Part shown: positions 27,995-55,931 of the stretch, piece by piece | How positions within the stretch are numbered: the stretch's first letter is position 1 | How the letters are laid out: every line of letters starts with the position of its first letter | Source of the DNA: Diplolepis rosae | Lineage: Eukaryota > Arthropoda > Insecta > Hymenoptera > Diplolepididae | Assembly: GCA_030998225.1 (NCBI GenBank) | Contig: JAPYXD010000522.1 | Location: 3,906,001-3,970,000 of the forward strand | DNA length: 64,000 nt | Reading direction: 5' to 3' | The notes under the pieces: model-generated | Seen by the model: the letters and a program-made list of their open reading frames with translations, nothing else | Told to the model about the DNA's origin: nothing | The model's database searches: none | Position numbers and translations under genes: made by a program

Positions 27995-28495
27995 TGGCCA
28001 GCCGCTGACCAACGGCTGATCGTACAAAAACGTTACAGTTCTGGCCAGCCCCAGACCAGGCCTTACAGTTAGCACCAGAACTGGAAACCAGACAGTCTGG
28101 TTTGGCGATTGCGAGCGCCATGAAATTTTTCTACACGGGGTACAGAACTTCCCAAAAGTATTCAGTAGAAAGTCCGTGAATGTTCTGAGTACCCGATATA
28201 TGAGATTTCTATGAATCATTTGAAAAAATAAAGTCCAAAGTTTGGATATTTCTAAGATTCAATATGAAATTCTGAATATAGGCAGATAGAGCTCGCACAG
28301 CATTCGTACATGAAAACTTCAAAACCAGTCAATAACATTTTTATGGACTATCAAAGACAACATGTAAAAATTAATATTTTCGCAATCTGTCTTCTTTTAT
28401 ATACTATTTTATTGATTTTTATACAAATTATACTATTATGCACTATCACTACACATCGCTGAACATAATATATTACCGCTGTTAAAATTAATTTT

Positions 28496-28600
28496 ACGCT
28501 GACAGGATTCGAACCTTAACTTTTACCTAACCTACATGTATAACGCAGTCTAACCTTATAAATTAAACCGCACGGCTACTGAAGCGCTTGCGATATTTCA
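28496..28600 (-). repeat. tRNA-derived SINE head
   Basis: On the minus strand, TAGCCGTGCGGTTTAA (box A-like) is followed by AAGGTTCGAATCCTG (box B). The spacing is longer than in a standard tRNA and the stems do not pair cleanly. Confidence 0.45.
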
Positions 28601-29499
28601 CAAAAAATGTTGACATTTTATCTTTAAAAAATGATGGGCCGTGTAAGAAATTGCTGCGTCTTGTTTAGCCAACAATTTTATATAATAAAGAAGTTTAAAG
28701 AATTATTATGTTTCTAAATTTTTTAATGATAAGATTTTAAATAAAATAATTTCTAAATTATTAATTATAAGAATTTCATAATCGTGACAGTAAAAATTCC
28801 ACAAGACTTTCAAGCGCAGTCCAAGAATTTTTCTTTGAATTGTGTAATTATTTTATCCTTGTATTATACGAATAAATAAAGCATACTGAGCACGATTCTT
28901 TTATTTTCTTATGTTTAATTTAATTTAATAATTACCTCACGTAACACATGATGCAACATAAAAACAAACATGACTCTAATCTATGGTGCGACTTACAGTT
29001 CTAAACGTGCTGAAATATCATATCATTGCGTTACTAACCTCAAAATTTTCGACTCATTATACATTCTTATCATGAATGAGAAGGTATTAGTTTTATATGA
29101 AAAATTACTTGCAAAATTTTTTTATTATATGCCTTTAACTAGTCTTTGCAAGTCATAGCAAACATGAAAAGATTTTTAATTATACTTTAAAAATCACTGT
29201 GACGAAATGTCATGCGTATTCTTCAATCTTGAATTTAAATACAATCTGAAATTGTTTTGAGAAATTGTTGAGACTCATAGAAATCTCAAAATTTGAAGAA
29301 AAAGTAGTGTTTTACTGAAATTGAAATAATTTTGCTATATTGTTCAAGAAATGAAAGTTGCTTTTGATTTATTCAGTTCATGCAACCTAATTTTTGTTGA
29401 ATTAACATAACTTTCCATTTAGTATAAAGAAAATCGAAAGATGGTCAGCATAATATATTTTAATAAAGGACGAAAATTTTAGAAATACGTAAAATAGAA

Positions 29500-29582
29500 A
29501 ACGTGCCAATACACACAATTCAGATTATTGTGAGACTCGCGACAATGCTCACAGGACTCATTATGCGCCTAGGCACGTAATA
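29500..29582. repeat. Small ACGTGCC...GGCACGT MITE
   Basis: The termini ACGTGCCAATACACAC and TGCGCCTAGGCACGT are imperfect inverted repeats. Relatives lie at 55042-55125 and 39908-40050. Confidence 0.55.
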
Positions 29583-29780
29583 TACTATTATTTTGTTCTG
29601 TTGAAGAAATAAAAGACACAATATTAATATGCTATTTATTCTGTATATTTTTATTCTATAATAAAAAAAATACGAGATATTCTATGCTTACTTTTTCAAT
29701 GAATCATAAAATGTGTTTGATTTTTTACGAAAAACAAGTATAATATATTGCCCTATATTTGATTGGTAATGATCCGCATG

Positions 29781-30127
29781 TATGTTTTTTGGGCTCAATT
29801 TATAGCCGAGGCTTTAGGAGTTATTTTAGCAAAGTTTCAAATTTTTCCTATCACATCCCTAAAGTATGCAGGCAGCTGAAGTTTAAAAGTGAAAATTTGT
29901 CAAAATCGGAAATTACGTCGGCCTTTCTCACATGCTATCTCGGCTTCTATGCAATTAAAATACTTCAAAAAGAGCTTATTCAACGCAAAATTTTATAATC
30001 TTTCAAACGCCTTTTTAAAAATGTTTCTAACTTATTTTTTTACGGAGATAGCAGCTTTCAAAGACGAGCATGTTTTTAATACAATTTTTGTAGGTGGTCC
30101 CACAATTAATTTTGACCGGTACGGTAT
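29781..30127. other. Unique segment replacing the promoter/exon 1 region in block A
   Basis: About 345 bases bounded by sequence shared with block B (CGCATGTAT on the left, TATTAATATAAGT on the right) but unrelated to the 698 bases at the same place there. No TATA box or signal-peptide exon was seen. Consequently exon 1 of gene A is not identified. Confidence 0.6.
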
Positions 30128-30636
30128 TAATATAAGTTCTAGCTTCTGGAACAATTAAGTTATTGTCAAGGTTATTGCGAATGATAATAAACGAGGGAAA
30201 AGCAAGCGGATGATCGCTTTTTTATCGCATTGCTTCGTTAGGAGAATGTTTTCTGATAAGCGCTTCGATTTCGTATTTCGTTTCCCACGAAGTGTGAGGT
30301 TAAATAATAGGTTTAAATAGGTTTTAAATAAGGCTGTCCTTCTTTTATATAAACCGCACACCAATCTAACCTTGACATTTTAAAATCGTCTGAAATTTTT
30401 TTCGCAACTTATATACATGAAATTACTTTACACATATTTCAGGATTTTTTTAAATAAATTTTTTTAAAAAATATCCACGTATAAATTTTCGATAATTTGC
30501 TGGATTTTCTCCAATCTTTTCCTACTTGAAATTTATTATCTCCAGTTGTGCTAATCGGATCAATCTCGGTCTTGTTTTATTTCAAATTTTTTTATGTAAG
30601 CAACTGAGTCATTTACTTTTGTAACCACATTGATAA

Positions 30637-30675
<39 letters not shown>

Positions 30676-30740
30676 TGTGTATATAGTATATGTATGTATA
30701 TGTATGTAAATTGTATACTTTTGTTATATTATTATACATA
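30637..30740. repeat. TA/TG microsatellite
   Basis: A run of TA repeats followed by GTATATGTATGTATATGTATG. Present only in block A. Confidence 0.85.
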
Positions 30741-32045
30741 ATATAACAAGGGTTTTTCATAATAATGCCAATTTGAGCGTTTAGATTTGTGCCCATGTTT
30801 GAATGTGTGTGCATATATTTACGTGCTAATTATGACAAACGATATTGGCACCTAAATGTATGCATGTAAATATATAATAAAATTAAATTAACCAGCTAAG
30901 ACGTGAGAATGGAAGAATGAATTAAAATAATGTAAATGAAATGAATGAAGATCAAGAAAAACGTGGAAGTTTAAAATTTGTAAAGAACGATAGAGAAGAG
31001 AATCCGAGAAAACAGCGAACGCAGGTACGTGGGACAAATAACGGAGAAAGAAGGAAAAGGAAAATGAAAAGGAAAATGCTCACACACACGTAAGCTGGAC
31101 CCTAGTGGCTGTAAGCGCAGGTATAACCCTTGCGGTGACGTCATGACACCTTACGCCTGCTGTAAGCAGCTTACACTCGCCTGTACGCACCGACTTGGTC
31201 GGATCCTACGCATGTTAGAGACCACGCGCTAAAATCTTTGACCGCTGGTATCGATGTTATGCATGCAATAGTATTCCTGGAACCACCTCAATCCATTAAA
31301 TCACTATTCCTATTATTTATTATACCTAAAGCTTGAGTAGCTGATAAACTGTCGGCCAGTGAGTAATACATTACCAAAAGTGGGGATTTTACTTGGGCGG
31401 ACGTAAATACTTATTTGAATATAGAAGCAAAATCTTCTGATTGAGCCCTTCCGAAATTTAGTAGATATTTTCTTTTCACCGAAATTCTAGCATTTTATAT
31501 TCCGTTCTAGTAGCCAGTAGAGAAAGCAAAGATTCCGAAAACGATCCTACTTAAAAACAAAAAAAAGGGACACAAAAGTGTCCTACAGTTTGTGAAGCCT
31601 CCGCGTAAACTTTTCATCTTTTAAATAAATATTAATTTATTATTTATAATATTTAATTATTTATTTATCCCTACCACCCGTACGTAACATTTACTGTTTT
31701 TCATCGGACTTTCTCCGTGATTGGAACACTAAAAAGTTCATATGAATGTGTCAGGATTTTTCCTCTTTTTTATCGGACTTTTTCTTTTTTTTATCGGATT
31801 ATTTCGACGCAAAAAAAGCAAAAATTTCTTTTCCCTTATATCGATCCTTTTCTCCTTCTTCCCTCTTCTCTTTGCACGTTTTTACCTTCATTTTTCTACT
31901 TATCATTGACAGCATGTGTGAAAGGAAAAATTATTCAGACTTTTATTATCATGCACAATTATGAAACAATGTTCGTAATTATATTAGGCAATTTAAACAT
32001 TTATGTAGTAAAGTCGAAGAAATCTGAAAATAATAATTCTGCTCC

Positions 32046-32130
32046 AAGCTGGTTTCAAACTCGCGTACTCGTGGTCCGTAGGCTAGAACGTAGACCGCTG
32101 ACCTGTGAAATCATTGCAACGGCACTTTGA
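32046..32130 (-). repeat. tRNA-derived SINE head, block A copy
   Basis: The minus strand has TCAGCGGTCTACG (box A-like) and a damaged box B (GAGTTTGAAACC). The block B copy at 57171-57258 retains GAGTTCGAACCC. Confidence 0.5.
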
Positions 32131-33386
32131 TTATTAGTTACATGACCCACAGCCTGAGATGTCCCATTTTCTTACGAGTTTTACTTTGAAAAACCCTGCT
32201 CTTGTTGGTGAAATCGTTTCCCAGCCGTAAAAAAAACTAATTTGTTTTTCTAAATGCAGATTCTACATAGCGAAACCATCGGTTTTGCCAAATGACTTTA
32301 TTTAATAACTTAATGGAAGGAAAGATTAGTAAAATTGTATTATCAAATCGGAAAACCGAAAAAAACAAAATACCTTTCAAAACTTTTTCAAGTGTTTTGT
32401 CTTGGAAAACTCGAAAATCAAGCTTAAAATCATTGACAATCGTAACCGATGCGCTTCTCGGATAATAATGTGAAGCGCTTCGTTCAATTTTTCATGGTGT
32501 TTCATTGAAAAAAATAAAGAGTATTGAAAAACAGCAACAATGCCGTAAATATGCAGATGGTCTTTAGTAATTAAAATCTTTATGAAGTCACTTTTTTAAA
32601 TTTAAAATTTTATAAAATTAGTGACTTTTTATGAAGTCAACTTTATAAAATTTTTTATATAAATTGTCTTTCTAAAATGTGTTTTTTTATAAAAACACGA
32701 AACATTATAAAACCACTGATTTTTATAAAGTTTTGTCTTTTTATAAAGGTACGATTCTTTATAAAAACTCTTAACTTTCTAAAATCTTTATATATTTCCG
32801 TCAAAATTTGAATAACAATTTTCCTATAAAAAAAAGTAAATACTTTCATTTTTTATCCTCTTATTTCACATTCGCAACAGAATATACTTCTTTTCAACCA
32901 GCAAATTTTCCTATTTTCTACTCCCTGAGGTAGAATCCCTATAAAAACAGGAAAAGATTGGAGAAAATCCAGCAAATTATCGAAAATTTATACGTGGATA
33001 TTTTTTTTTTTAAATTTTTGTAGCAAAATCCTAAACTACGTGTCAACTAAATTTCTTGAAACATGGAGGAAAAATTGTTTCATCGCATTTGAATGTGTCA
33101 ATATTTTTCCTGCAATTCGTACACTGTTAAAAAAATCGTAATTTTCCAATACATAGGTGATGAAATTTTTCAATAATAATCAAAAAAATATTCCTCTTTC
33201 GAATTATTCCAATAATTTACAAGAAATATTCGAATCCCTTTTGGATTTTCTTTCAGTATTGAAATTTTTTAAGTGTAGTCTTAGAATTCTTCGAAATTAG
33301 ACACGCAATATTCGGTACGTCATTGAATATTTCCAACATGATTTTATATAAAAATTTCAAAATTTCTATGAAAATTCCAGAACATA

Positions 33387-36300
33387 CGAGGTCTGTCCGG
33401 AAAGTATCGGGCCTAACTTTATATCTCCGCGCTGGCGTTATTCTTCATCATCGGGCGGGTGGCATCCTTCAAAGTAATCCCCACTTGATTGAATAACACG
33501 GTTCATGCGATGTTTCCACTTTTCGAAACAGTCCTGGAACTCACTTTTTGGGATGGCCTTGAGTACGCTCGTCGCATCATTTTCCACCATCGTTTTTTCA
33601 TCGAATCGCTGTCCTTTGAGTGGTTTTTTGAGTTTTGGAAACAGCAAAAGTTACAGGGGGCTATGTCGGGACTGCACGGCGGCTGGCGTAGCTGTACAAT
33701 CTTGTGTTTCGCCAGAAATTGCTGCACAAGGTTCGATGAATGCGCTGGCACGTTATCGTGGTGAAGAAGCCAGTCACCGCTTGACTGGAAACACGGTCGT
33801 CTTCTTCTCACGGCATCACGCAAACGTTTCAAAATTTGAATTTACTATTCTCTATTGATTTTCTGACCTGTCGGTGCATATTCGTGGTGCACAACACCTT
33901 CTTAATCGAAAAAAACAATCAACATTGACTTCACACTGCTCCGACTTTGACGTGCTTTTTTCGGCCGTGGCTCGTCTGGACGCTTCTACTGTGAGGATTG
34001 TTGTTTAGTTTCAGGATCGTAACCATAAACCCATGATTCATCACCAGTAATAACCTTTTTAAGCACAGCATCATCGTTATTGACTGTTACGAGCGTGTCA
34101 AGGTGGCCAAATTTCTCCTAAATTATAATATAATTTCTACATAAATTCGCATGCCACTCAAAGCGCCCGTAACCGAGCACCTTGACAAGGTCGCTGATGC
34201 AGCTTATCGTTGTTCAGGTCAAGGAACTTTTAGCAGATGGTTGATTCGGGAAGGAAGTTCCTAATACATTGTTATATTAATATTGATAGTGTGATTAATA
34301 TAATTAATATGATTGATGTTTTGTATATATATATATCATTATTAATGGTTAATATCATTATGATCATATTATTAGTGTTGTATATTAAGCATATATCGCT
34401 TTATATTGTACAGCATATTGATATGAAGTAATATATACATATATACATATATATATATAAACTGATGTACGTGCAGGCTTGTGCACCTGCATATAAATAT
34501 GAGTTTATGTTTACAGGTAAATGCGGATAATTATAACTACGATTTTATTTTAATGCGAGTGGCCTGTCACATAATCGCATAGATTGTAAATTCATTAAGT
34601 ATCTAAATTCAGGAAACTTCTAAGGTATTATTTTATTAGTATTAATATTGCTTTTATATGATATTAATTCATTTAAAACCATTAATATTGTCGCCAATAA
34701 TTATAACTATAGCTTCATGCGAGTGGCCTGTCACATAATCGCAATTTTAATACCTGAAATAATGTAAGTCCAGGAAATAATTATAAATATTTTCACCTGA
34801 AAGTGGAAGCAAAAGGAGAGAGCGCGAGAGAAGAAGAGAGAGCATAAGAGAGAGGAAGAGGGAGAGATACCCAGCGCGTGTACACTCATGCACTGTATCT
34901 CACTATAGCTTTCTGCCGTTTGTCAATTCCTTTCTTCGTTCGCCCATGCACATGCCCCATATACCCGTCTCTTTTGGAAACTTTTGATGTGCTCTGCTGT
35001 GCATCGCGAGGCTAGCATACATTCCATTTTCACACTTCCTTCTCATGCGCCTATCCTTGCTTAGATGCTTTAACTAGCTGATCTCCCACAACAAAGGCCA
35101 CGTGCTTTTTGTAATCAAAACCTAAAGGACTCATCCGAATATTTAAAATAATTATGTAAGGCTTTATAATTCATACAATGATTATAAACCTAGACTAATT
35201 AAATATATATATTTCAATTTAGCACGAAATATATTAGAAACTGAAATCGTTTCTACAATTTGATGACAATGCATCAAATACTAAAATTCGATGAGCGCAT
35301 TTCCTTTCTCACGATAAGTGTGGAAATAGGGGAGAAATATTCGACACCTGAAAATCAGCAAATGGTGCAATAACTGAATCAGCATGGTACAAAGTCCATC
35401 TAAATTCCTAAAACCTCCCTACCATTATTTCCTTGTCCAATCATAGATTCCTTAATCATCGAAAAACCCTACCATGTTCACCTCGCAACCGGAACTACTT
35501 GAATAGTAGAGAATATATTTTCTCTACTTTGCCCGTCTGCGGCCCAGATCGACAGTTCCTAGATCCTCATTGGTTGATTGAACCCGTAAAACTCTTTCTA
35601 ACGAAATTATATTTTTGGAATCGTGTCGGGCGGACGTAAAAGACAAAAGACTTCATCTGGACAGAAGCAACAGAATTAAATTCTTTCTTCGGCGGGCTAT
35701 TTTTAAAGTCCAATTCGTTTAATAAAAAAACGGCAAAAAGGTGCGCGAAATCGCGGAAAAATTAATACTACCGAATCTCAAAACGGTAGTGATAATTTTT
35801 CATAAAATATTGTAATTAGATTTAATAGGAAAATTCTAGCGGCGAAAAGGGCGAGTTTAAAAGCACTCAACCCTTTTCTGGTTAAAAGCCAACCGTTATT
35901 TTCTCTTATTAAGCCTAATAGAAAGTGGCAAAAACAATATTTGTGTGCGCGTGTGCTATGCGCGACTCGCAAATCGGACAAAGTGTGATTTTGAGCAACA
36001 CTCAACAGAAAACCATTGCCCAGTCTAGGACGAATCAGGAACTAAGGGAAAAATCTCTCCCTCTCTCTCGCACTCTCCTGGGACTGGTAGATGTAAGGAA
36101 AACTAATAGTAAGGTATCGTTCCAATATATGTATTTATTTGTATATCCTTTTTATACGGACATTAAACACTAAAACTGGAAATCTTCCTGTGTTCAAGTT
36201 TTCTTTTCCAAAAATCAAAGAGGGTTTTCTTAAAAGCAGGGTATAGGCTCCTCAGTCAGAGGAGAGGGCAAATACGATCCCAGATTAAAAACAAATTTTG

Positions 36301-36861
36301 GTTTATTTAATTTATAATTTCCTAAATTGAAATTTGGCAGTTTGGAGCCTCAAGCGGGCGTATAATCGAATTTTTGGTATTCCAAGGTCTTCTTCTAGTT
36401 GCCGCACAGTCATACGAGGATCTTGTTCGATCGCAAGTCGCACCCGCTCAATATTATCCAAAGTTTTTGACGTCGAAAGTCGACCAGAACGAGAATCACT
36501 ATTAACAGAAGTGCGGTCTCCTTTGAAACGATTATACCACTCTTTTATTCGTGTTTTCCAAAGGCCTTTTGCATGATCTGAATAGTTTCCGAACTCGTTT
36601 TTCTGAGTTGAAAACAAAATTTGATGCAAATTCGTTGATCTTGTTTTTCAGTCATTGTTAACAATCACAAAATCCGCCGAACTCCAAAATAGCTTGGTAA
36701 AGAAAGACACGTAGCGCATGAACTATACGTCCGGCAGATGTCAGCAAGCAACCGATAGGTTTGTGAGGTTTTACTGTAGCCCTTCATGCCCCGCAGAGGT
36801 CGCTCGAACACTATGGCGCGGAGATATAAGGGTAGGCCCGATACTTTCTGGACAGACCTCG
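33387..36861 (-). mobile_element. Mariner insertion, itself split by a 2.2-kb insertion
   Basis: Terminal inverted repeats CGAGGTCTGTCC(G/A)GAAAG at both ends. The corresponding unoccupied site is in block B (AGAACATATATTGG at 59741-59754). On the minus strand the transposase N-terminus (36629 to about 36320, SRSGRLSTSKTLDNIERVRL) and the catalytic part are separated. The catalytic part has GDESWVYGYDPETKQQ near 34030, LLHHDNVPAHSSNLVQQF near 33770 and PPCSPDIAPCNFCCF. The third Asp is replaced (APCNF). Stops and frameshifts are present. Confidence 0.85.
34125..36320. mobile_element. Unclassified 2.2-kb insertion inside a mariner
   Basis: Bounded by the 8-base direct repeat CCTAAATT (34117-34124 and 36321-36328), which may be a target duplication. 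It contains two copies of ATGCGAGTGGCCTGTCACAT (34552 and 34716), a purine-rich GAGAGA tract (34815-34870) and TA repeats. No terminal inverted repeat or protein was recognised. Confidence 0.5.
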
Positions 36862-37559
36862 TTTATTGGTCAATTAATTCCAATACTTTATTGGAAGTTT
36901 ACAAAAAAAATTTTTTAGAATGTACGGTATACAAACCATTTAAGAAAATTTACATCTCGTCGAATCTCAAAACGACTATAAGTTTATTTTCTTATAACCA
37001 CAATTAGGGTTAATAAACGATAAGAGCAGAGGAGGATAGGCGATGCAAAAGTACTCCCTCCCTTCCAGTTGAAAGATATCTACCTCTTTTTATTTCAACA
37101 CTATTTGGTGAAAAGTGAGAAAAAGGGTGTGTGCGTGAGTGAATTGCGCAAAATATAGGAGTAGTTTCTTTAAAAAACTACGAGAACACAAATTTAAGTT
37201 TCTCCTGAATCATCCAGGATTTCAGAAATTCAGGACATTTTCTGCTTTTTTGCTTTTGCTCTCTGGGAATATGGTAGGATTAAGAAAACAAGGATGTGAT
37301 AGCGTAGTAAATCTATAATTGTATCGTTCCAATTTCTTTCCTGCATCTTTTGTATTGTTCACACCAGTTCCGATTTCTTGTTTAAAAATAAATATTGTAT
37401 CGATATATTAATTTTGGGCCTACATAATTTGTTGTAGTTCAAAATCATGTTTTCCTTCTTCAAAAATTCGATATTGTAATCGTAAGATAAAATATTGATA
37501 TTTCGAATAGTAACAAACATTAAAGTAGTTCAATGTTAAACAGATATTAGGTGTAGAAC

Positions 37560-38000
37560 TTTGCTTTCGCCGTTTTTCGATAGTTGGCGGCAGCAGTAAA
37601 TGCTGGTCGAAATAAGCGGATCAAAAATGTCATACAGTAAGCTTGAACATCTGTCAATATAAGGACAGCATCACATTAGTGAATTTGTGTTTGCATCATA
37701 AAATTACTCTCGATTGAAAATGTCAGTTTTCGAGCCAAATTGGTAGAATCGTTGGGAGTGACTCAAAAAGCGATTTCTAAACGCCTCAAAGCCATGAAAA
37801 TGATTCAGAAGAAAGGAAATTAGGTTCCGTACGAGTTGAAGCCGAGAGATGTTGAACGGTGTTTCTTTGCTTGTGAATAGCTGCTACAAAGGCAGAATCG
37901 GAAGACGATTTTACATCGCATTGTGACCGGCGACGAAAAATATGTGCACTACGATAACCCCAAGCGCAGAAGGACCGGCCGAACGCTAGGTTCAGCGTAA
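37560..38000 (+). mobile_element. Mariner N-terminal fragment, block A
   Basis: The plus strand reads, with stops, LGVTQKAISKRLKAMKMIQK, ELKPRDVER and HRIVTGDEKYVHYDNPKRR, the DNA-binding end and first catalytic Asp of a mariner. It is cut off by the foldback at 38005. The same truncated copy is at 60560-60975, so the truncation predates the A/B duplication. Confidence 0.75.
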
Positions 38001-38004
38001 ACCT

Positions 38005-38302
38005 AGCGTAAAGTAACAATATAACTCATGAAGGTCATAAAATAAATATTTAACTTATTTGTATCCTTATTCTACGTTAAAATTGACGTTGAACGGTAAT
38101 GGAGATAAGCAATAATTTTATTTATTAACGCTAAAAATTTCAAACATATAGACATTATCGTTTTTATCATTTTTAGCGTTAGTAAATAAAATTATTGCAT
38201 ATTTCCATTACAGTTCAACGTAAATTTTAACGTAGAATAAGGATATAAACAAGTTAAATATTTATTTTGTGACTTTCATGAGTTACTTTCATGTTACAGT
38301 AC
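38005..38302. repeat. Hairpin element, block A copy
   Basis: Near-perfect inverted repeat of about 140 bp arms (AAGTAACAATATAACTCATG ... CATGAGTTACTTTCATGTTA), meeting at a short loop near 38150-38165. Same family as 61002-61594 and 61598-61885. Confidence 0.8.
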
Positions 38303-38573
38303 TTTGAATCATAAATAAGTAATCAGTTTTCAAGAATAAAGCCTTAAATTTTGGGAAAAAACGGGGTAAGCAAAGTTGGACACCTAATAAATTAATTATA
38401 TATAATTATTCAAAAAATGTCATGCATGCTTTGAAACTACGCTAGTCTGCTCTCTGCTAATAAGTGTTAATTTCCTACGTATTCTTAATAAAACTCGTAC
38501 ATATGTCTCCACTTAATACGAACAAAAACCTCGTTGAAGTTCATATATAATTTATTTACATAATTGTTTTAAG

Positions 38574-38705
38574 GTGAATCCAAAAACGCTTTTGTAATTG
38601 TATTGCAAGAGAAGGATGAACATACCAAAATAGTAAAAGAATCTTTTTGCTGCATGGCCTTGATTCAAGAAAACCGAGCCCTAGGTCTTGCTGAATGCTT
38701 CGTGG
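38574..38705 (+). other. Gene A exon 2 (His57-region exon)
   Basis: Acceptor TAATTGTTTTAAG, donor GTGG|GTGAGT, phase 1 in and phase 1 out, 132 bases. The two Cys in FCCMALIQEKRGLGLAEC are 16 residues apart, as Cys42 and Cys58 are in chymotrypsin. Glu stands at position 57. No IVGG-like activation site precedes it. Confidence 0.8.
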
Positions 38706-41700
38706 GTGAGTTTTTCATGGAAACTTTGATTCATAAAACATGGCGCTGACAATTTACTCTTAGGGTGATGTCACTGACCAGTTTATTCAACTAACAATAA
38801 AGATAGAAAAAGTAGCAACAAAAGACATTGCTATGCAAACTAATACGCACAAAAAAATGGTTTGGTTTAGACAACTAAACTGGGTTTGGTTGAAAATATT
38901 TCAGTTGCCTGAACCCGGAGAAGGGTTGCAGCAACCGAAGTGGATCCGTTGTAATGACTCAATCTGTCTAGTTACAACAGATTCGTTACGAGAACCTCAC
39001 AGTTTGGTTGTCTGAACAGTAGATTTTACCTGTAGTTTCATTTCTAATTCTATTCTCCCTTCTAGAAATAATGAATTGGGTAGGATTAGATTCGATTGAT
39101 CCGATTGAGAACGATAAAGAAACACGATTGAAAACAATCACGAGGGCTGTTCAATAAGTCCGTGACTTTGAAATGAAGAACACTTTTTATAACAAAAATT
39201 CTAATTTATTTTCCAACATAGTCCCCTTTTAACTGTATACATTTATTATAGCGGTACTCAATCTTCTTTATGCCCTCTAAAATGCAAAGTTTTCATGTTA
39301 AGAAACAAAAAATAATCGAAAGGAGCCAAATCTGGGGAATAAGGTGGATGAGGGAGTATTTCGTACCGTAAATCAAATAATTTGGCCGTTGCAATGGCAC
39401 TCGTGTGAGCTGGTGCATTGCCGTGGTAGAAAAACACTTTTTTTGCGCCAGATGGGGCCGCTTTTCCTTCAGTATGGCATCCAATCGATCTAATAATGAG
39501 GCATAATACTCGCCTGTAATGTTTTGTATGTGCCTCCGGCGCGCAAACTCGTTTTTACGCTACAGTTGAGAGTAGCGTAATGTTGTGTATTACGATACAG
39601 AGTAATGTAATGTAAAAATTGAACTGCGCATGCGCCTATTACGATACTGTGGAACGTAATCTTCTTCTTATTCTTCTTAGTACAGCGTTAGCACCGTTCT
39701 GACAAAGCCTTGTACGTTCGAACTGCGCATGCGTCTATTACAATACGCTTCTACTAACTACTACACAAGATCGAGAAAATAAAAATGACCGAAAATATTC
39801 GCGAAATGTCAAGTGAGATGGGCGATAATCACGGCAATTTCGACCTTTTCAGATTGAATTCAACTGTACGCATAAAAACTCGTGTATGCGCCGAAGTCAC
39901 ATAAAATAGAATATGTGCCAATGCACACAATTCGGGTAATTACGTGGTTCGCTTAAAATGCTCGCAGGACTGATCACTCCTCGGCTTCGATCTCCTGCGA
40001 GCATTGTCGCTCGTCGCGTAATAACTCTCATTATGCGCCTAAGCACATAATATACTATTCCCTTCTGTAGATCATCGATTAATATTATACTGAAATTACC
40101 CACTGAAATGTTTACAGTCTCACTAATCTCACGCACTTTCAATCGACGATCGTTGAGTACGATGTCGTGGATTTTATCGATCATTTCTTGAGAAGTCACC
40201 TCTTTTGGACGGTCAGAACGCTCAACATAACATGTACTTATAGAACAGCCCTCGTACATTAATTGATTCCTATTGTTAAAAACGATTGGAAACAATTAAA
40301 TTGATTGCTTTCTATCCTGTTTCTTAAGTGTTTTCAATCGGGCCACGATTGGAAAAGATATAGAAAAACGATTGGAAACAATTAAATTAATTGATTTCTA
40401 TTGTGAAACACGATTGGAAACAATTAAATTAATTGATTTCCATCATGTTTTTTAATTGTTCTCAATCAAATCCACACTGAGAAAAAAGATTTGATTGAAT
40501 CAAAGAAAATAATTTGTTTGAACGACTTTCTTGGATTTAATTAAATGATTTGTTTAAATGAAACAAAATTGGTTTGATTCAAACAAAATATCTTTGGACC
40601 AAATAAATATTTGTTCGAATCAAATAAATTTCTGCCTTAAATCAAACAAATTATATTTTTGACCATATATCAATGCATTAATTTCTTTGTTTTGAAGAAA
40701 AATTAATTTAATTCAAACAAATATTTATTTGGTTCAAAGATATTTTGTTTGAATCAAACAAATTTTTTTTCATTTAAACAAATCATTTCTTTAAATCAAA
40801 AAAAGTCGTTCAAAAAAATTATTTTCTTTGATTTAATCAAATCTTTATTCTGAGTGTAATCGTCCAATCGATTATCCCTAGAAGGGTAATTACGTGTAAT
40901 GCGAGCGGTTACCGTTACCGACTGCAGGTGCGTGTTACATTTAAAAAAATATGTTCTATCCCCATTGGTATAAAAAATCATATATAGATATATGCTTTAA
41001 TATGTTTGAAATTACAATATGTGATTACTTATGTATTAAATTAAATTATTCCATAAAATTGAAGTGTGTTCACACACGGAGAGAAATAACTAGTGCCGCG
41101 CACGCATTGAGAACAAGCGTTCGGTACACTGACCCTCTAATGTTTATAGCGAGTCATTTTGTGGCTACATGTTGAAACTCACATAATTCGCATGTGAGTG
41201 CAGTGTATCTAGTGCATGGACAATATCGTATGTGTCAAACACGGAGAATAGATATAAGGAGACCAATCTCCATATATCCATTCCCGAAATGAAGTTCCGC
41301 CAAGTACATAGTTACAAAACTTCCTGAAGAGGGCATGTGTGTTCCCTGGGTGCAAAATAGCGACGCCGAATACATAATGTCAAAATATTTATTTTATATT
41401 TATTAGATTATTATAAACCGTGGATGCAGAACTTCATTTCGTGTTTTGTGAAGTACGGCTATAAGAGATTGGTCTCCTTATATCTAGTCTCCATGGTATA
41501 AACCATGAGTACCCGGAGACTTCATTTTCTTACGCTACTTTCAGGGGCGCCATCTCTTGGGAAGTTGCCGTACTCAATCAATGTACTTCCGACAAAAATA
41601 TACTCTTTTTCAGTTACATTATTTTGGTCTCCTAATATCTATTCTCCATAGTGTCAAGCATGAATATCAAGTTTTTTTTAATTTGAACTTCATGGTTTCA

Positions 41701-44700
41701 CTACTTGAATGGGTCGAAGTGTTATTAACACTGATTTGCGTCAAGTGCTCACTAAAACTCAGTAAAGCTTAACCAACTGGGTCGCATCGGTTGAGATAAC
41801 CCAATTCTCATTTATAGCAACTAAATGTTTTTACATTCTCACCATATGAGAAGGTATTGTTCTATGTAAACATAACTTTTTAAATTTTCATAAAATCTCG
41901 ACGTTTGAGACGCCTTGAGCAAGAAAAAATGGTTTTTATGACTGTCTATCTGTTTATCGTTGTCGTTATCGTGTGTATAAGCACGATAAATCTCGATAAT
42001 ATTATCGGATTGGATTGAAATTTGGCACACATCTTGAGGGCCCAAAAAGAAAGGATGAGTCCGTTAACAAGCCATTTTTGACCAATGATTCTGCTTTTTT
42101 CCATAAAAAATATTCTTATATATTGTACATAAAAAATTCCGTTTTCCCGCCAAAATATACAAGATACGGCAAAAATGTTATGAAACAACAGTCTTCATTT
42201 CAAAGTGATCTACAAACTTCCTGATGACAATTTTTTCATCCCATCAAATGAAAGCTTATTGAGGCGTATTGACGATTCAATTTGTTATACCTTATTTAAT
42301 TTCATTTAAAGAACATCTATAGAGCTATAAAAAATAAGTATTTATTTGGTGTTCAAAATATTTGTAAAAAACGAAAAGTACATAAAAGTACCTTATAATT
42401 TTATATTTTCGTAATTTTTAGCGATACGTGTATTAGAGATTGCGAGTAGGTGGTAACAAGATCTTTGGACAATCAATAAACATATGTCAGTGAAATGAAA
42501 TTTTAATCAAAGAAACGAATCTTGTAAGACATGACAACAAGATTCGTTTCTTTGATTAAAATTTAATTTCACTGACATATGTTTATTGATTGTCCGAAGA
42601 TGTTGTTCCCACCTACGTATTTTTCATATGATTCTCGGACGTAAGAAGTATATTTGAATAGAAGATTGTTTTTTTAAAACTAATATTGCATGAAAAACTC
42701 GATTTAGCCTTGAAACATTCATAAAAGAAAATACGATATTTTGAGGGTATTAATTTTTTATTTGTAGATAATTGTTCAAATTTGTATTACATCTGTCATT
42801 TTCATAATAATAATAATTAGTATTTAAATAATTTGAAAATCATTCTGTGGAAAAAAGACGCTTTCGACTCCGCTGGGATTCGAGCCCAGGTCATTCGATT
42901 GCCGGTCCACTGCTCTAAACACAACTAATTAATTTGAAATAATAATTAGTTATTTCACAGCACATTGTGAGTTCCAATTCGCAAAAGTTATATCTATCAA
43001 ATTTATGAAATAATAAAAATGATATTCGTTAAATTTTACATGAATTTTACATGAAAAAAATTGCAAATTTACGTATCAAATCGGTTGCTTCAGATTCAAT
43101 CGCAACATTTTTGCTATATAACTTCAAAAGATTTATATTTTTTATTTTGAATCTGTTTAGACTGATTCACTTTTCACGCACTTGTAAATATTACTGTTGA
43201 ATCTGTTTAAACAGATTGAATCTGCATATCGAGAGGTCATGTGATCGTGACATCAGCTCGACTTTCACATTTGTGGCAGTCGAATCTGACGAAAAAGATT
43301 AACTTGAGAAATGTGGCATCTTTTATATTCGTCGAGCCTATTCCCAATCTGTCAAAACAGATATAGATAACAGCTTTAATCTGCCTCGTTACCATAACGC
43401 TATTCAAACGGGGGCGCTTGAATACGCTTCAATGAGCTTTCATTTACTGGGATGGCAGTTATATTTTTTGTTTAATAATAAAAAATGTTTTTACAAATTA
43501 AAATCTTTAGGTCCCAAAAAAACTATACGAGATGCGGTAAATAATTTCCAGACAAAATGGATATAAAGTGAAAAATCGAGCTTTGGCAGTTGCGATCAGT
43601 AGGTATTCGCCAAAGCTAAGCCTTCGATCCAACTGCACCCTTAGGTACTTGATGCTTGTTTTCCACTTGACCTCATGTTCTCCGAAAACGATACTTGGGT
43701 ATTGAAAGGATCTCCTGTGCGTGACGAGCAAAGCCTCGGTTTTTCCATGGGCCATTTTCAGGCCTCTGCAATCCAACCAACGCTTTGCCCGCCACAGACT
43801 TTAATTGATCCTTAGCTCAAGAATTCTGACGTCTTCAGCAGCACACACGACAAGTACGTCATCCGCAAAGCCGACGATGCTCGTTCCAGCAGGTAGGTCC
43901 ATGCGCAGAAAGTCATCGTACATGATGTTCCAAACGAGTGAACCCACCTGCGACCCTTGAGGAGCGCCACATGTCATCTCTTCTTTAAGAGACCATTTGT
44001 CGCCCTCGTATGTCACCCACCTGTCGCTCAGATTAGTCATCTATCATTCGCAACAGGTAGTCTGGAACCTTTTTCCGCACCATCGCTTCGATGCAGATGT
44101 TCCATCTCGCGGTGTTGAACGCATTGCGTATGTCAATACTCATCAACGCGCAGAATCTCTTTCGCTTACCAGTTCCTTTTCTTGCATTTGTGGCGATGTT
44201 AACCATAGCTTGGATAGCGTTCACAGTGGACCTGCCTTTCCTGAATCCGAACTGGTTTTCCGAGAGAACGTTCTCCCCGACCAAGAGAGTCTGAAGCCAC
44301 AACAGAATCAATTCCTTTAGAAGCTTCCCCATCCCGCCCGCTCTCTTTAGTTTCTCAAGAGTGAAGAGTTCTACACGCTGGACCACCGAGGGACTTCGGT
44401 CCTGTCTCTTGCACGGCTCTACGTGTGGAAACAAGCTCCGCAGAATGTACTTGACTCGATCGGAATTATCCAGGCCCGAGGTCCTTCTTCTAGCCTCCAA
44501 TCTCTTGGTGACTACTTTGAAGGTGAGACCCCATGGGTCCTCCTCGACCTCACCGATTAAGTCATTTGAGCATTGAAGTCGGCTTTTTTTTATGCCTCGC
44601 CTAGAAGCTGCTTTTGCATGAGCCGCCACCAGGGACATGGGCGATATCTTTGTCGCCCCTGTCTAAACACGTTTGGCACCTTGGCGGCGCCTCACAGCTC

Positions 44701-47700
44701 CTGGCTAAGTGTCCCGTGGTGCCGCATATCCAATAGGCGTTCTTCTCATCAGGGTTACCACAGCCCCGGGACTCATGGCCGTAACCAAGGCACCTGAAGC
44801 ATCGGGTGACTTCCGCATGCTCGCTGATGCTATCATAACTTGTCTGCGCTGATGCTCATTTTCACTTTTTCAAGTACCCTCGTAAAATACATATTAGTGG
44901 ACGTACTGTGCCTCTGTTTATAACAGATGTCAAAATAGCGGGCTATTCAAAATGAAACCTCTAATTTAAAAACACTGTACATTCTCATCATATGTGAAGG
45001 TATTGGTTTTATATGAAAAATGACTTTCGGAATTTTCATCAAATCTTTACGTTTTGAAACCCCCTGAATCAGAAAAAACGGTTTTCACGAAAGTATCTGT
45101 TTTTCTGTCGTTGTCGTGTGTAATCAAAAATTGCAATATTCTGCAATACTGCCCTTCTTGAAATAATCAATTGGACACGATTTAGAATAATTGATCCGAT
45201 TGACCCGATTAAAAAACACCATTGAAACCGATTCATTTAATCGGATTTAATCGGCGTGCACCAATTGAATTTAATTAAATGAGTCAGTTTGAATGGTGTT
45301 TCTTAATCAGGTGAATCAGGTTAATCGTTCTAAATTGTGCCCATTCGGTTTTTTTAGAAGGGTGTTCATTCCCACGCAAAATTTATAAAAATTAAGCATC
45401 GAAGTACTTAAATAAACTGACTACTTTTTAAATGAAAATCAGGTAAGAAGAAAGAAAATATTGAGCCTGCTATATGGAGCGAATTATCATATTGTCCAGA
45501 CACATACAACGAAATTGGACAAGTGGTTGGAGACAAGGGGACTTATCGAATTCTATTTTTGCTTTGGTAACTGTGAGTAGATCTATAGAAAATTTATGGC
45601 TCTTTAACTCATTAACTCTACCTTGATATTAGAATGTCTAGAAGCCTTCAAATGTTTATGATAAGACTTTTTTATTTTAAGTTGGCAAAGAAAGCGCCTG
45701 GTTACTTCGCTGCAAGATATTCCAGTATGTATCCTGAACAGACGGATTTTGGTGAAATCAAAGAGAACAGCGAGTTTATATTAAACGCATTGGACAAAAG
45801 ATGTGAGAAACTTTTACTAAAAATAGTTGGTAGTTGGCTCTATTAGCGGGTAGCGGTCTAGATTCTTGACTCATCTTGAAATTATTACTATATACATATT
45901 TCAAGTGAATTCACTGATTGTCTTATAAAAGGTTTCACAAATAAGAACCTTATTTTTTGACCAACTACCTAGGAAATAAGAAACGATTGGTTAAAATTTC
46001 TGTGCATTACGTATCTTAAAATTTACGATCAACGGCTTCTGGATGTGCATCAAAACATTGTTGAATTGTGTTTAGAACATTCACATCGCATGAATTTGTT
46101 TCAATAACGTTGAATCGCAGTTTTACGATTAAGTGACACAGTTCACAAAATTTGAATCAACAAGATACATTTTATGAATTGTTTATCTCAATCGTGAAAT
46201 CACGATTAACATCAGTAAAACAAGTTTATACGGATGGAATTTGCCGCAAAAACAATTCAACAAAGTAATGATTTAATCGTTCTGGAATCGAATTGCCGAT
46301 TCAAAAAGCTTTCCGATTCAAATGGCTACAACACAATTAAACCTGAAAATTTTGAAGCTGCAATTTTAAAATATGCAATTCACAGCAACTTTAGCATTTG
46401 CTTTTTGTTTACTGGGTAACGTCAAAAAAGCACTAAGGAACGTTTATCTACTCGTAAATATTTATAATTATTAAAAAAAGCATTTTCTAACAAAATTTCT
46501 TTTCATAATTATAAAAATGTTGGACCAGATAAACGTCCTTTACTGCTTTTTATTTAATCACTCAAAGTTTCAACTCGATGACTCAATTAAAGTTGGAAAT
46601 TTTTTTGTTTATAATTATAAATATTTAGGAGTAGATAAACGTTTCTTAGTGCTTTCTTCTTAACTCCTCAAAGTTTTAATTCAATATCTCAATTAATGTG
46701 AGAATGTGAAGGGAAAGAAAAAGTGTCAGTAAGGTAGGGATCGGATAAGTAAGACTTAAGGGTGTATTCTAGTTCGTGGGCTAAAAAAATAGGCTATTTT
46801 CAGGAATTTTTTGTGAGCATTCTATGGAAGATATGGATATAAACATTGTTAGGTATGATAAATAAAGTCTTAAAATACAAAAAAAATGTTCTTTTGTTCA
46901 TTTTTTTCAACTTTTACATACGAAATCCGTATTTGAACGCAACGCAATAACATAGTAGCAAGTTGCCTTCTCCATAATATCTTAGGAACGGCTTATCTGA
47001 AACAAAAAAACCAAAGCTTTTTGGATTCGGTATGACAGTGGCTACAAAATGAACTACGGACATTAATTTTCAACTAATTTTGTTAATTTTTTGTAGAAAA
47101 AACCAAAAAAATTGAAATTAGTTGTTTTTTATCGCTGTTTTTTGTTTAAAAAATATAGTAGAAATCAAAATTTTAACATGATTGTAGTTCACTTTGTGAG
47201 TTCTTATGTGTAGAATATGTGGTTGAAATTTCAGGAGGACCAGTCCACTGGTTCTGGAGAAATCGTGGAGCTAGTCCAAAAAAACGTTGTTTTGAGAAAA
47301 ACGCGTTTAAAGTTTTTTTTTTACAAAAAATCATTAAAAAATCTTACATATACATATAACATAACATATATATATATATATATAAAGTCGAAAAATGTAA
47401 AAAGAAAAAAATCGATTTTTCCAAAGTGACCAACTAGAATACACCCTTAAGACATGACTCTAATCGTAATTTTACAAATGAGACGAGCAGTTCACGAAAT
47501 ATATTTTGACGTTTCAAATTTGGATTGTGTCACTTAATCGTAAAACTACGCTTCAACGTTATTGAAACAAATGTATACGATTGAAAAGTTCTGGACACAA
47601 TTCAGCAATATTTCGATGCAATCTTTTTCAAATAAAACTGCAGATTAAGAAACCTTTTGTCGCAAATTTCAAAATACGCAATTCACAGAAATTTTAACTA

Positions 47701-50669
47701 ATTGTTTCTTTTTTCCTGCTCAGACATGGGTTACATGGAAAACACCCCAGCCACATTTTCTGGGCAAGATGACTATTATATCGAAGTCTTGGTTAAGAAA
47801 ATGTATAATGTTGTGAGTAGACAGTGTCGGAATTATTCTTTCAATAATATTTAACATCAATCACATATTTAATTGAATCGAAACTCCAGACCCTGAGACC
47901 AGACTATATACTTTTCCGAAGGTATCTGGTGCGCTGAATTCGAATCCAACCTCGAAATTGCTCCATCGCCTCAGGTTTTCGAGAAATCCTAACCTAAAAG
48001 TGCAAAAAACACTGTTTTTTGCTATATTTGGGGTTGAATTACTTTGCGAATTATGTTTTTTTCTAAAAACTCGTTACGGCATCTGAAAGTATCACTTTTG
48101 CCCTTGAAAATGCTTTTTGACTTTTATAGATATCTTTTTTTTCTTGCAGTTATCGTTCAATGAAGTTGAGTACTCTGCCGTTTTTATGAATACAAACTTA
48201 TCGAAAAAACGTTCGTCCGGAAAGCAGAAGAAATAATGCGCTTCCATGTTTCTTGGGTTGCTAAATTCAGATCAAACCTCAGAATTGCTCCATCATATCA
48301 GGTTTTTTAAATTTCCTAACTGCGCATAGAATAACCCATAATATAGCGAAAATGGTGTATTTTGCACTATTAGGTTAGGAAATTAAAAAAGCTGAGGTGA
48401 TGAAGCAATTCTGAAGTTGGATTTGGGTTAAGCAACCCAAGAAACATAGAAGCGCATTACCACCTTGATCAAAAAGTTTTAGGACTCGTCACCGTGTGGC
48501 ACTCTCGTCCGGCCGATTTCAATTCTTTTTTTTTGTTTTGTTGGTAGAAGTGCCATTGACGTTCTGTCAGATTTTCAGCTTGATAGCTTGAAATTTGTTG
48601 AAGTGACGCTGTATTGTGTGCATCTATGTTTGTGTGTGGTTTCGATTTTTTACAAAAAAAATGTCGTCTACTTTGCAGCAACGAGTTTGCATTGAATTTT
48701 GTGTTAAAAATGGATTTAACGGTGCGGAAACTTTGGAAATGTTGGAGAAGTGTTTCGGCAATGATACTCTAACGAGATCGAACGTTTCCCGCTGGCACGT
48801 ATGCTTCAGAAGTGGTCGTGAGTCGGTCGAGGATGACGAACGCAGTGGCAGGTCGTCGACGGCGAAAACTGATGAAAACATCAACAAAATCAAAGGGTGG
48901 ATGACCGTAAGCCGCAAATTGACCATTAGAGAGATTGGAGAGGAGTTGAACATTGCTTTCGGATCCGCTCAAGACATTTTGGTTAATGATTTGGGCCTCA
49001 GACGTGTCGCTGTAAAGCTGGTGCCGAAAGACCTGAATTTCATGCAAAAAGGGATCGCGTCGATGTCGCAAAAGACATGCTTTCCAAGGTCGACTCCGAC
49101 CCATCATTCATCAAACGGATAATTACTGGTGAAGAGACGTGGATTTATGAGTATGACACGCACTCCAGAAATCAAGCAAGTGAATGGCGTTCACCCAATG
49201 AGCTGCGACCGAAAAAACCACGTCGTTTACAGTAAAAAAAGAAGGTGATGCTTACGGTTTTCATGGATTACAGAGGTGTTGTGCATCATGAATTCCTTCC
49301 AGAAGGCCAGACCGTCAACAAGGAGTATTATTTGGGCGTTATGAGACTTTGCGTGGAGCAATTCGTCAAAAAATACCGGATTTGTATTATCCGTGAGCAT
49401 TTGGCTGAAAATGAAACGAATACCATCCAACAATCACCGAATTCACCTGATTTGACTCCCTGCGACTTTTTCCTATTCGTTCGACTCAAGAAACCGCTCC
49501 GCGGAACGCGTTACAGCACCCGAGATGAGGTAATGAAAAATTGAAGATGACTCTGATGGCTATACCGCAAACCGATTATAAAGAATGCTTCGAGGATTGG
49601 ATCAAGCGCTGGCATAAGTGCTTTGCAGTCGATGGGGAGTACTTTGAAGGGGACAATATCGATTATGATGAATAAACTTGTATTTTTGATTTTAAAAAGA
49701 AAGTCCTAAAACTTTTTGATCAAGATGATATTTCTTCTGCTTTCCGGACGACTTTTTTCGGTAAGGTTGTATTCACGAAAACGGCTAATCACTCAACTTC
49801 ATTGAACGATATCTCCACGAAATAAAAAGAAAAACATAAAACCAATACCTTCTCATCCATGATGAGAATGTAAAAAAATTAATTCGCAAAGTAATTTAAC
49901 CCCGAATATAGCAAAAAAAACCTTGATTTTTGCACTTTTAGGTTAGGAATTCTCGAAAACCTGACGTGATGGAGCGATTCTGAGGTCGGATTCGGATTCA
50001 GCGCACCAGAAACCTTCGAAAAAATATAATCTGGTCCCAGGGTCTAAAAAATGTGGGCCTGTATTATCATTAAAATTTTTCCTTTTAAAAAAAATCGATT
50101 GATCACAATTGGATTCGATTGACCCGATTTAGAACGATTAAGAAACACGATAAAAATCAATCAATTTAATTGATTCAAAAGTTTATAACAATAGAATTTA
50201 ATTAATTTAATTGTTTCGAATCGTGTTTCTTAATCGTCCTGCATCGGATAAATCGAATCTAATCGTGTCCAATCGATTATATTAAGGGAATATAAAAATC
50301 CCAACTGCTTTATATTTCAGAACTATAATTGGAAAGGTAGCCCTTTATTTCATAATGGAAAAATTGTAGCAATTTGTAAGGAGCATGAAATGCATAATTT
50401 TGAGTCCCCTTGGTATGGAGCAAAAATTTTATGTCTAAAAACTAATACCATTTTTGAAAAATTTGTGTTACCTGAATTGAACAAAGAGAATATAGAAAAA
50501 AAGGTACGATGATTTTAATCAGGTCAAATTAGATTATTTTTACACAGGTTGTAACATACATTAATGAAAATTTTATTTTCTATGTATCACATCTGAATTT
50601 TATTAAAATGACTATAACTTTCTTCTTTTGTTGTAGGATAAAGAAGGCTCTTCTGGTACATACAATTAA
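38574..50669 (+). CDS. Serine protease homologue-like gene A (exons 2-7 visible)
   Basis: Six exons: 38574-38705, 45443-45566, 45645-45829, 47724-47812, 50321-50503 and 50637-50669. Successive splice phases (1, 2, 1, 0, 0) are compatible. With one base from a first exon the frame closes on 248 codons plus TAA, the size of a chymotrypsin-fold domain. Exon 2 has FCCMALIQEKRGLGLAEC, matching FCGGSLI...AAHC with the 16-residue Cys42-Cys58 spacing but Glu in place of catalytic His. Exon 6 has NWKGSPLFHNGKIVAIC in place of GDSGGPL. The product is probably a secreted, non-catalytic S1 homologue. No first exon was found for this copy, and the exon 3/4 junction is ambiguous, so it may be a pseudogene. 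The introns are filled with transposons. Family membership is inferred. Confidence 0.7.
39527..39903. repeat. Palindromic MITE
   Basis: The left end TATGTGCCTCCGGCGCGCAA pairs with the right end (complement ATGTGACTTCGGCGCATACA). The arms also share ACTCGTTTTTACGC. The block B copy begins at 63924 and leaves the window. Confidence 0.6.
39908..40050. repeat. ACGTGCC-type MITE, third copy
   Basis: Related to 29500-29582 and 55042-55125 (ATGTGCCAATGCACACAATT ... GCGCCTAAGCACATAA), with an extra inner palindrome TGCTCGCAGGA/TCCTGCGAGCA. Confidence 0.55.
40475..40856. repeat. 382-bp near-perfect palindrome with CACTGAG ends
   Basis: The left arm CACTGAGAAAAAAGATTTGA pairs over almost its full length with the right arm (complement CACTCAGAATAAAGATTTGA). 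The arms consist of AAATAATTTGTTTGAA-type words. Confidence 0.85.
41197..41670. repeat. Foldback with GGAGAATAGATATAAGGAGACC arms
   Basis: GAGAATAGATATAAGGAGAC near 41238 pairs both with the complement near 41467-41495 and with a second complement near 41630-41655, suggesting one foldback inside another. No gene. Confidence 0.6.
42446..42616. repeat. 171-bp hairpin, nearly perfect
   Basis: Arms of about 80 bp (GTAGGTGG(T/G)AACAA ... CACTGACATATGTTTATTGA) separated by a loop of about 10 bases near 42530. Only a few mismatches were seen by eye. Confidence 0.9.
42866..42918 (-). repeat. tRNA-like segment (SINE relic)
   Basis: The minus strand reads AGAGCAGTGGACCGGCAATC followed by GGGCTCGAATCCCAGC, resembling the 3' two-thirds of a tRNA with box B. 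The 5' acceptor half is missing. Confidence 0.5.
43507..44830 (-). mobile_element. R1-clade LINE fragment, copy 2, endonuclease missing
   Basis: On the minus strand: two zinc knuckles (CFRCLGYGHESRGCGNPDE, CGTTGHLARSCEAPPRC) at about 44820-44660; then directly the pre-RT segment EEDPWGLTFKVVTKRLEAR; RT blocks FGFRKGRSTVNAIQAMVNIA and SIDIRNAFNTARW; then EEMTCGAPQGSQVGSLVWNI and the catalytic block IVGFADDVLVVCAAE; and the thumb start MAHGKTEALLVTHRR. RT keeps its Asp pair but has frame breaks. The endonuclease is absent, as in copy 1. It lies in intron 2 of gene A, antisense to it. Confidence 0.85.
45152..45362. repeat. CCCTTCT...AGAAGGG foldback (CGATT family)
   Basis: Inverted termini CCCTTCTTGAAATAATC and TTAGAAGGG with palindromic CCGATT/AATCGG words between. 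A complete small member of the 39057-40886 family. Confidence 0.65.
45443..45566 (+). other. Gene A exon 3
   Basis: Acceptor AATGAAAATCAG|GT accepts the phase-1 reading. In that frame it reads NIEPAIWSELSYCPDTYNEI then GDKGTYRILFLL. The donor TTTG|GTAACT gives phase 2. A stronger donor 7 bases on (AACT|GTGAGT) would include an in-frame TAA. Confidence 0.65.
45645..45829 (+). other. Gene A exon 4
   Basis: Open frame with LQMFMIRLFYFKLAKKAPGY, PEQTDFGEIKENSEF and DKRCEKLLLKI. Donor GTTG|GTAGTT, phase 1. The acceptor at 45643-45644 keeps the frame with exon 3 through a Cys codon. The better-looking acceptor at 45631-45632 (GATATTAG|A) would create TGA with the chosen exon 3 donor. MFMIRL may correspond to the Asp102 strand, with the Asp absent. 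Confidence 0.6.
45964..47716. mobile_element. Foldback filling intron 4 of gene A
   Basis: The left arm GGAAATAAGAAACGATTGGT pairs with the right arm (complement GGAAAAAAGAAACAATTAGT). Arms extend about 200 bases (TTACGATTAAGTGACACA and complement near 47526). A TTAA-flanked element (46760-47446) sits inside. The right arm ends in the pyrimidine tract of the exon 5 acceptor. Confidence 0.65.
46760..47446. mobile_element. TTAA-flanked (piggyBac-like) MITE 1
   Basis: Inverted termini GGGTGTATTCTAGTT and complement, with TTAA on both sides (46756-46759 and 47447-47450). The interior shares AAAACGCGTTTAAAG and an AAAATCGATTTTT block near the right end with the element at 52065-52741. No transposase. 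Confidence 0.75.
47724..47812 (+). other. Gene A exon 5
   Basis: Strong acceptor TTTCTTTTTTCCTGCTCAG, donor AATGTT|GTGAGT, phase 1 in and phase 0 out. It reads MGYMENTPATFSGQDDYYIE then VLVKKMYNV. The arrangement resembles the VxGWG...L...V.V strand pair after the Asp102 region of S1 proteases. Confidence 0.75.
48460..49728 (+). mobile_element. Full-length but inactive mariner in intron 5
   Basis: Inverted termini (C/T)CA(C/T)CTTGATCAAAAAGTTT, with TA at 48458-48459 and 49729-49730. The unoccupied site is visible in the opposite arm of the host foldback (complement of 48229-48240, GCGCATTATTTC). Length 1269 bp. Confidence 0.9.
48661..49675 (+). pseudogene. Mariner transposase, frameshifted and deleted
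   Basis: Starts MSSTLQQRVCIEFCVKNGFN with the paired helix-turn-helix region (RKLTIREIGEELNIAFGSAQ). The frame is lost near 49050, where one A appears missing from a run (FMQK to RDRVDVAKDML). It continues to IITGEETWIYEYD, where the first catalytic Asp reads Glu, then a stop after PRRLQ. The second catalytic block is deleted (RICIIREHLAE follows KKY). The third survives as LTPCDFFLF. The end is DNIDYDE at 49675. Confidence 0.85.
50070..50290. repeat. CGATT-family foldback next to exon 6
   Basis: AATCGATTGATCACAATTGG pairs with the complement near 50268-50285. Words such as CGATTAAGAAACACGAT mirror ATCGTGTTTCTTAATCG. It ends about 30 bases before the exon 6 acceptor. Confidence 0.6.
50321..50503 (+). 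other. Gene A exon 6 (degenerate Ser195 region)
   Basis: Acceptor TTTATATTTCAG, donor AAAAAG|GTACGA, phase 0 at both ends, 61 codons fully open. NWKGSPLFHNGKIVAIC aligns with GDSGGPLxxxGxLVGI, placing Lys at the catalytic Ser. It continues FESPWYGAKILCLKTNTIFE. Between exons 5 and 6 the S1 fold would normally have about 30 more residues. No exon was found in the TE-filled intron, so a loop or exon may be lost. Confidence 0.8.
50637..50669 (+). other. Gene A terminal exon 7
   Basis: Strong acceptor TTTCTTCTTTTGTTGTAG in phase 0, then DKEGSSGTYN and TAA. The intron before it is 133 bases, the only one apart from intron 3 that is free of transposons. Confidence 0.75.
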
Positions 50670-50715: not shown

Positions 50716-50721
50716 AATAAA
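50716..50721 (+). terminator. AATAAA polyadenylation signal of gene A
   Basis: A canonical AATAAA lies 47 bases after the stop codon of exon 7. Confidence 0.6.
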
Positions 50722-55873: not shown

Positions 55874-55931
55874 ATGAAGTGCCTGAATGCTGTTTTACTG
55901 TCTCTTATTATCGCTGAAATCTTTCCTCAAG
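55874..55931 (+). other. Gene B exon 1 (signal peptide)
   Basis: ATG in AAAAATG context, Lys then a hydrophobic core, ending at a phase-1 donor. Unspliced reading would stop after ten more codons. The surrounding 698 bases (55330-56028) have no counterpart in block A. Confidence 0.75.

Follow-up and report, generated by a model that had tools for sequence, protein, structure and literature searches.

By analogy, the nearest functional model for the protein family described here would be the insect serine protease homologues (SPHs), Vn50 among them. Thirteen SPHs are reported from the honey bee (PMC1761132), and Vn50, an SPH from the venom of Cotesia rubecula, is said to block melanization via competition for binding partners (PMC4516919). 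Unannotated secreted proteins are also described from the early larvae and venom glands of Biorhiza pallida (PMC6855507, PMC6667641). Insect SPHs are described as protease-like secreted proteins without activity, and the family reported here is predicted from its sequences to share these properties. It differs from the SPHs in that all three residues of the catalytic triad have been lost, in that its dozens of copies are too divergent for Pfam, and in that no clip domain was found in Pfam scans of 10 family models. Its likeness to the B. pallida proteins, which as described are likewise signal peptide-bearing, unannotated proteins of cynipid wasps, is one of description only. In a literature search that covered titles and the opening parts of abstracts, we found no description of this family.

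The window, by which we mean the whole 64,000-nucleotide stretch of Diplolepis rosae DNA that was analysed, corresponds to positions 3906001-3970000 of contig C266 in a searched genome of 757.7 Mb and 428 contigs. The initial annotation of this window proposed a hidden, multi-exon serine-protease-like gene made of six ordered segments on one strand. Six such segments are present on the plus strand, each preceded by AG and all but the last followed by GT, and comparison with paralogues was used to set their borders. We refer to the gene in the window as copy C and number its segments as exons 2 to 7: exon 2 (38574-38705; phase 1 in, 1 out), which places LAEC at the trypsin AAHC site; exon 3 (45443-45572), whose 3' end aligns to the paralogue motif FALVT, at the place of trypsin DIALLK; exon 4 (45682-45802; phase 0 in, 1 out); exon 5 (47724-47812; phase 1 in, 0 out); exon 6 (50321-50503; phase 0 in and out), which places NYNWKGSPL at the trypsin CQGDSGGPL site; and exon 7 (50637-50669), which contains the stop codon TAA. 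The introns measure 6737, 109, 1921, 2508 and 133 bp, in agreement with the 6.7 kb and 1.9-2.5 kb first given for the larger ones, and a possible poly(A) signal, AATAAA (50716-50721, plus strand), does begin 47 bases past the stop, which ends at 50669. When exons 1 to 6 of eight family models were compared with the window by tblastn (E<=0.01; exon 7 was left out of the queries), the matches were exons 2 to 6 of copy C, exons 1 and 2 of the next gene, and one further weak match on the minus strand (E 0.009). Judged by sequence comparison, the six segments are genuine exons: they are more than chance because paralogous exons match in the same order, and some of those listed lie at a distance of about 2 Mb along the contig.

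Copy C belongs to an extensive family. A genome query with exons 2 and 6 returned at least 81 matches, which sort by query part into 52 of exon 6 type (one of them, at 2211940, ambiguous) and 29 of exon 2 type. At least 35 exon 6 matches have E<=0.001: contig C266 carries 32 of them and C195 the other 3. With the threshold at E<=10, C266 accounts for 34 of the 52. These counts are lower bounds, and matches close to E 10 may have arisen by chance. On C266 the exon 6 matches extend over 1.97-7.90 Mb and are separated by 33 gaps, of which 27 measure 11-80 kb. In and next to the window there is a head-to-tail array of four genes, namely A (exon 2 at 3871072), B (exon 2 at 3892242), C and D. Identity is about 84-95% in the pieces of at least 400 bp that align between copy C and its neighbors B and D, so the duplication looks recent. 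Exon 1 of paralogue D, which encodes a signal peptide, lies at 55874-55931 and its exon 2 at 62158-62289, both on the plus strand, with the remainder of the gene past the end of the window. The first intron of D measures 6.2 kb, and its model, which treats exons 6 and 7 as a single exon, is 239 residues long.

Continuous open models could be built at 11 of the 14 paralogous loci that we inspected, with intron phases of 1, 1, 0, 1, 0, 0 as far as each model reaches. Models A and I comprise exons 1 to 7, models J, K and R exons 2 to 7, and models E, F and N exons 2 to 6. Models B, D and M begin at exon 1: B ends partway through exon 6, D continues from exon 6 straight into exon 7 sequence, the intron having apparently been deleted, and exon 7 was not found for M. 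The 11 models are 220-264 residues long, including the six without exon 1, which in those cases may lie outside the DNA that was fetched. The three loci left out of this count are H and O, which show only exon 6 in the fetched DNA (H also shows part of exon 5), and Q, for which the search did not find exons 3 to 5. Exon 1 was located in A, B, D, I, M and Q, and it codes for a signal-peptide-like start, for example MKCLNAVLLSLIIAEIFPQ. A distant relative of the family at C388:2725001-2726500 (L049) apparently carries exons 5 and 6 as a single exon.

We consider it probable that copy C is a decayed tandem copy and that its family consists of secreted pseudo-proteases derived from S1A proteases. 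The serine-protease likeness put forward in the initial annotation proved weak and partly collinear. Alike in the family and in S1A proteases (PF00089) are a signal peptide wherever the family's exon 1 is known, the FC-x15-C spacing, L-x-L-A-x-C at the AAHC place, FALV at the DIAL place and, in most models, GSPL-x4-K-[IL]-x-A-[IV]-C at the place of GGPL...GIV. Both cysteines at the C42-C58 spacing are kept in 10 of the 11 models, K4740 having F at the second site. The family is unlike S1A proteases in its catalytic residues and in its Pfam scores. His57, Asp102 and Ser195 were each found in none of the 11 models at the aligned site, and Asp194 is replaced by Trp in 10 of the 11. A Pfam Trypsin search, which had been suggested as a check, gave nothing above the cut-off in a scan of 10 distinct models (F was left out). 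The sole Trypsin match was that of model N, at 12 bits versus a cut-off of 20.6 (E 0.19), in which residues 23-95 fall on profile positions 24-101; the same model matches Lipin_N better than Trypsin (E 0.0045), also below the cut-off.

These scores bear on the explanation that the family is unrelated to trypsin, in which case the proteins would have a novel secreted fold and their FC...C and GSPL motifs would resemble those of trypsin by chance. In addition to the absence of any Pfam match above cut-off, a PDB profile search gave no match, and the best stretch in hhalign comparisons with eight trypsins of the same genome, FC...LAxCF on FCGG...AGHC, had a probability of only 0.5%. The full 206-column profile scored 19.3 against 112 trypsin sequences, a score equalled by 20 of 300 column shuffles, while the reversed profile scored 14.7; rotated-profile controls were set aside as uninformative because rotation hardly alters local scores. 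Taken exon by exon, four of the five profiles fail to beat their shuffles. The exon 6 profile falls on SGGPL with a score reached by only 1 of 200 column shuffles, whereas the score of the exon 2 profile, which falls on FC..TAAHC at equal positions 21-43, was reached by 94 of 200, and those of exons 3, 4 and 5 by 123, 121 and 172 of 200, respectively. The profiles of exons 3 and 5 have no meaningful placement, and that of exon 4 falls at 87-100, which is too early. Against an unrelated fold, however, two exons align at collinear places with the C42-C58 spacing kept, and the introns of the family lie beside the AAHC- and GDSGGP-equivalent places, where some trypsins of this genome also break. 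In the matches listed, some of the multi-exon trypsins are interrupted at about profile positions 46 and 177, next to AAHC and GDSGGP, but many others are interrupted elsewhere, for example near 94 or 134. We regard an unrelated fold as unlikely, and descent of the family from trypsin-like (S1A) proteases as probable on the sequence evidence, although this descent is not statistically secure.

Two candidate bridges between the family and trypsin were discarded. The single protein-database match, P0001, reads as exon 2 of paralogue M running into the intron, and L049 is only a distant relative with exons 5 and 6 apparently fused. A search with paralogue I returned nothing at E<=1. Eight intron-less trypsin domains on C349 and C350 (L001-L008), in which the whole Pfam profile is open and GDSGG is intact, stand apart from the pseudo-protease family. 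For one trypsin of the genome (L005), the closest match among named proteins comes from the cynipid Belonocnema kinseyi (59% identity); next come a beetle protein, with only 39% identity, and then, with a lower score, one from the figitid Leptopilina boulardi (54%). An ENA entry matches this trypsin at 100% identity across 79% of it. Judged by this single trypsin, the source would probably be a cynipoid wasp.

The initial annotation also described copy C as an intact gene whose phases agree at every join and which, with one base borrowed from exon 1, totals exactly 248 codons. The hidden multi-exon gene and its transposon-filled introns stand; the intact reading frame does not, since exon 1 is absent and exon 3 is out of frame. 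With the exon 3 borders of the family, exon 3 of copy C is 130 nt long versus 131 nt in B and D, and as a result the chain breaks and the frame stops within this exon. Because the difference of one base falls in a short run of G, it may reflect an error in the assembly. The segments sum to 688 nt, or 689 nt with the borrowed base, and neither total is a multiple of three; the exon 1 that was to supply this base was not found in copy C. With the other five exons fixed, totals of 744 or 747 nt need one of three choices of exon 3, and all three contain stops. When all borders were left free, a non-exhaustive script returned six open chains of 744 or 747 nt, which all begin exon 4 at 45633, exon 5 at 47650 and exon 6 at 50287, where the family models differ. 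By hand calculation, a 107-nt exon 3 starting at 45466 restores the phase, yet yields 222 codons. An intact gene of 248 codons was rejected.

Exon 1 of copy C is absent from the continuous sequence between the last exon of B and exon 2 of copy C. A DNA profile of the six known first exons recovers, as it must, all six of them (E<=1e-36). Its next best match had E 0.66, in a search of the window together with the loci fetched by then, whose sequence runs unbroken from gene A to gene D. Synteny with B and D is preserved on either side of the missing exon: the flanks of D exon 1 match copy C at 29113-29787 and then again from 30124. In place of the B and D exon 1, copy C has a 336-bp segment (29788-30123) with no exon-1-like sequence, which matches B or D only in very short pieces and of which no other copy was found among the loci fetched by then. 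In the assembly, copy C thus lacks the combination of a start codon, a signal exon and a continuous frame to the stop.

These observations could be accommodated by a working copy C if a one-base assembly error affected exon 3 and the start came from a first exon that is unrelated or far away. The splice sites of copy C are canonical, its exons 2, 4, 5 and 6 are open, the exon 3 defect lies at the G run noted above, and a hydropathy scan of 25001-38573 leaves a single stretch, at 31951-32104, that starts with ATG and has a phase-1 donor. However, that stretch is unlike a clean signal peptide, and exon 1 has been lost structurally, with both flanks present and the exon missing between them. We judge a working copy C to be improbable. 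On the sequence evidence, copy C has most likely ceased to function, and its inactivation would be recent, given its canonical splice sites and open exons.

Transposon fragments occur at several places in the window. A reverse transcriptase fragment (PF00078; 44036-44662, minus strand) lies in intron 2 of copy C; mariner/Mos1-type transposase fragments (PF01359, PF17906) lie at 96-761 on the minus strand and 3279-3986 on the plus strand; and an open frame that encodes the helix-turn-helix domain DUF4817 (PF16087), and that is probably transposon-like, lies at 23018-23590 on the plus strand. In intron 5 of copy C, the stretch 48460-49926 (plus strand), which B lacks, as does D with slightly shifted boundaries, contains a Mos1-type mariner reading frame (PF17906; 48661-49119, plus strand). 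The many copies of the aligned exons, and the transposon fragments that surround them, might suggest that they belong to a transposable element rather than to host genes. This is very improbable, since the copies form a tandem arrangement in which order, introns, phases and signal peptide are conserved, and neither a transposase nor a reverse transcriptase occurs in the joined models.

We estimated dN/dS from exons 2, 4 and 5 together with codons 1-48 of exon 6, a comparison that includes 5.5-13 synonymous changes, and obtained 1.02 for B-C, 1.52 for C-D and 0.84 for B-D. Exon 6 pairs gave mixed results, with dN well under dS in some, and uniform positive selection was rejected. A fair statement from these sequences would be that change is clearly fast, and near-neutral, in some branches of the family and constrained in others.

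Taken as a decayed copy within a tandem array of paralogues, copy C would have contributed the six segments as its exons 2 to 7. Complete members of the family would begin with an exon for the signal peptide, after which the remaining exons keep to phases 1, 1, 0, 1, 0, 0, and their predicted secreted proteins most likely arose from trypsin-fold (S1A) proteases through loss of the whole catalytic triad. Because the triad is absent, members could only bind, and we infer that they would act as pseudo-proteases by binding rather than cutting. Venom, larval gall secretion, immunity and reproduction are candidate settings for such a role. After duplication, copy C would have lost exon 1 and probably one base of exon 3, and a mariner element would now reside within its intron 5. 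More tentatively, and we hold this broader picture as possible though doubtful, the genome may carry more than 30, perhaps more than 50, mostly tandem and fast-changing secreted pseudo-trypsins that evolve by birth and death and serve as a lineage-specific secretion, either venom or larval gall secretion, with copy C freshly killed beside living neighbors. The value of copy C itself lies mainly in the example of birth-and-death decay that it would provide. A large family of this kind, not recognized by Pfam and scattered among transposons, would be easily overlooked in routine annotation, and if its members are expressed in venom glands or in young gall-wasp larvae, they would provide a candidate list for plant or host manipulation.
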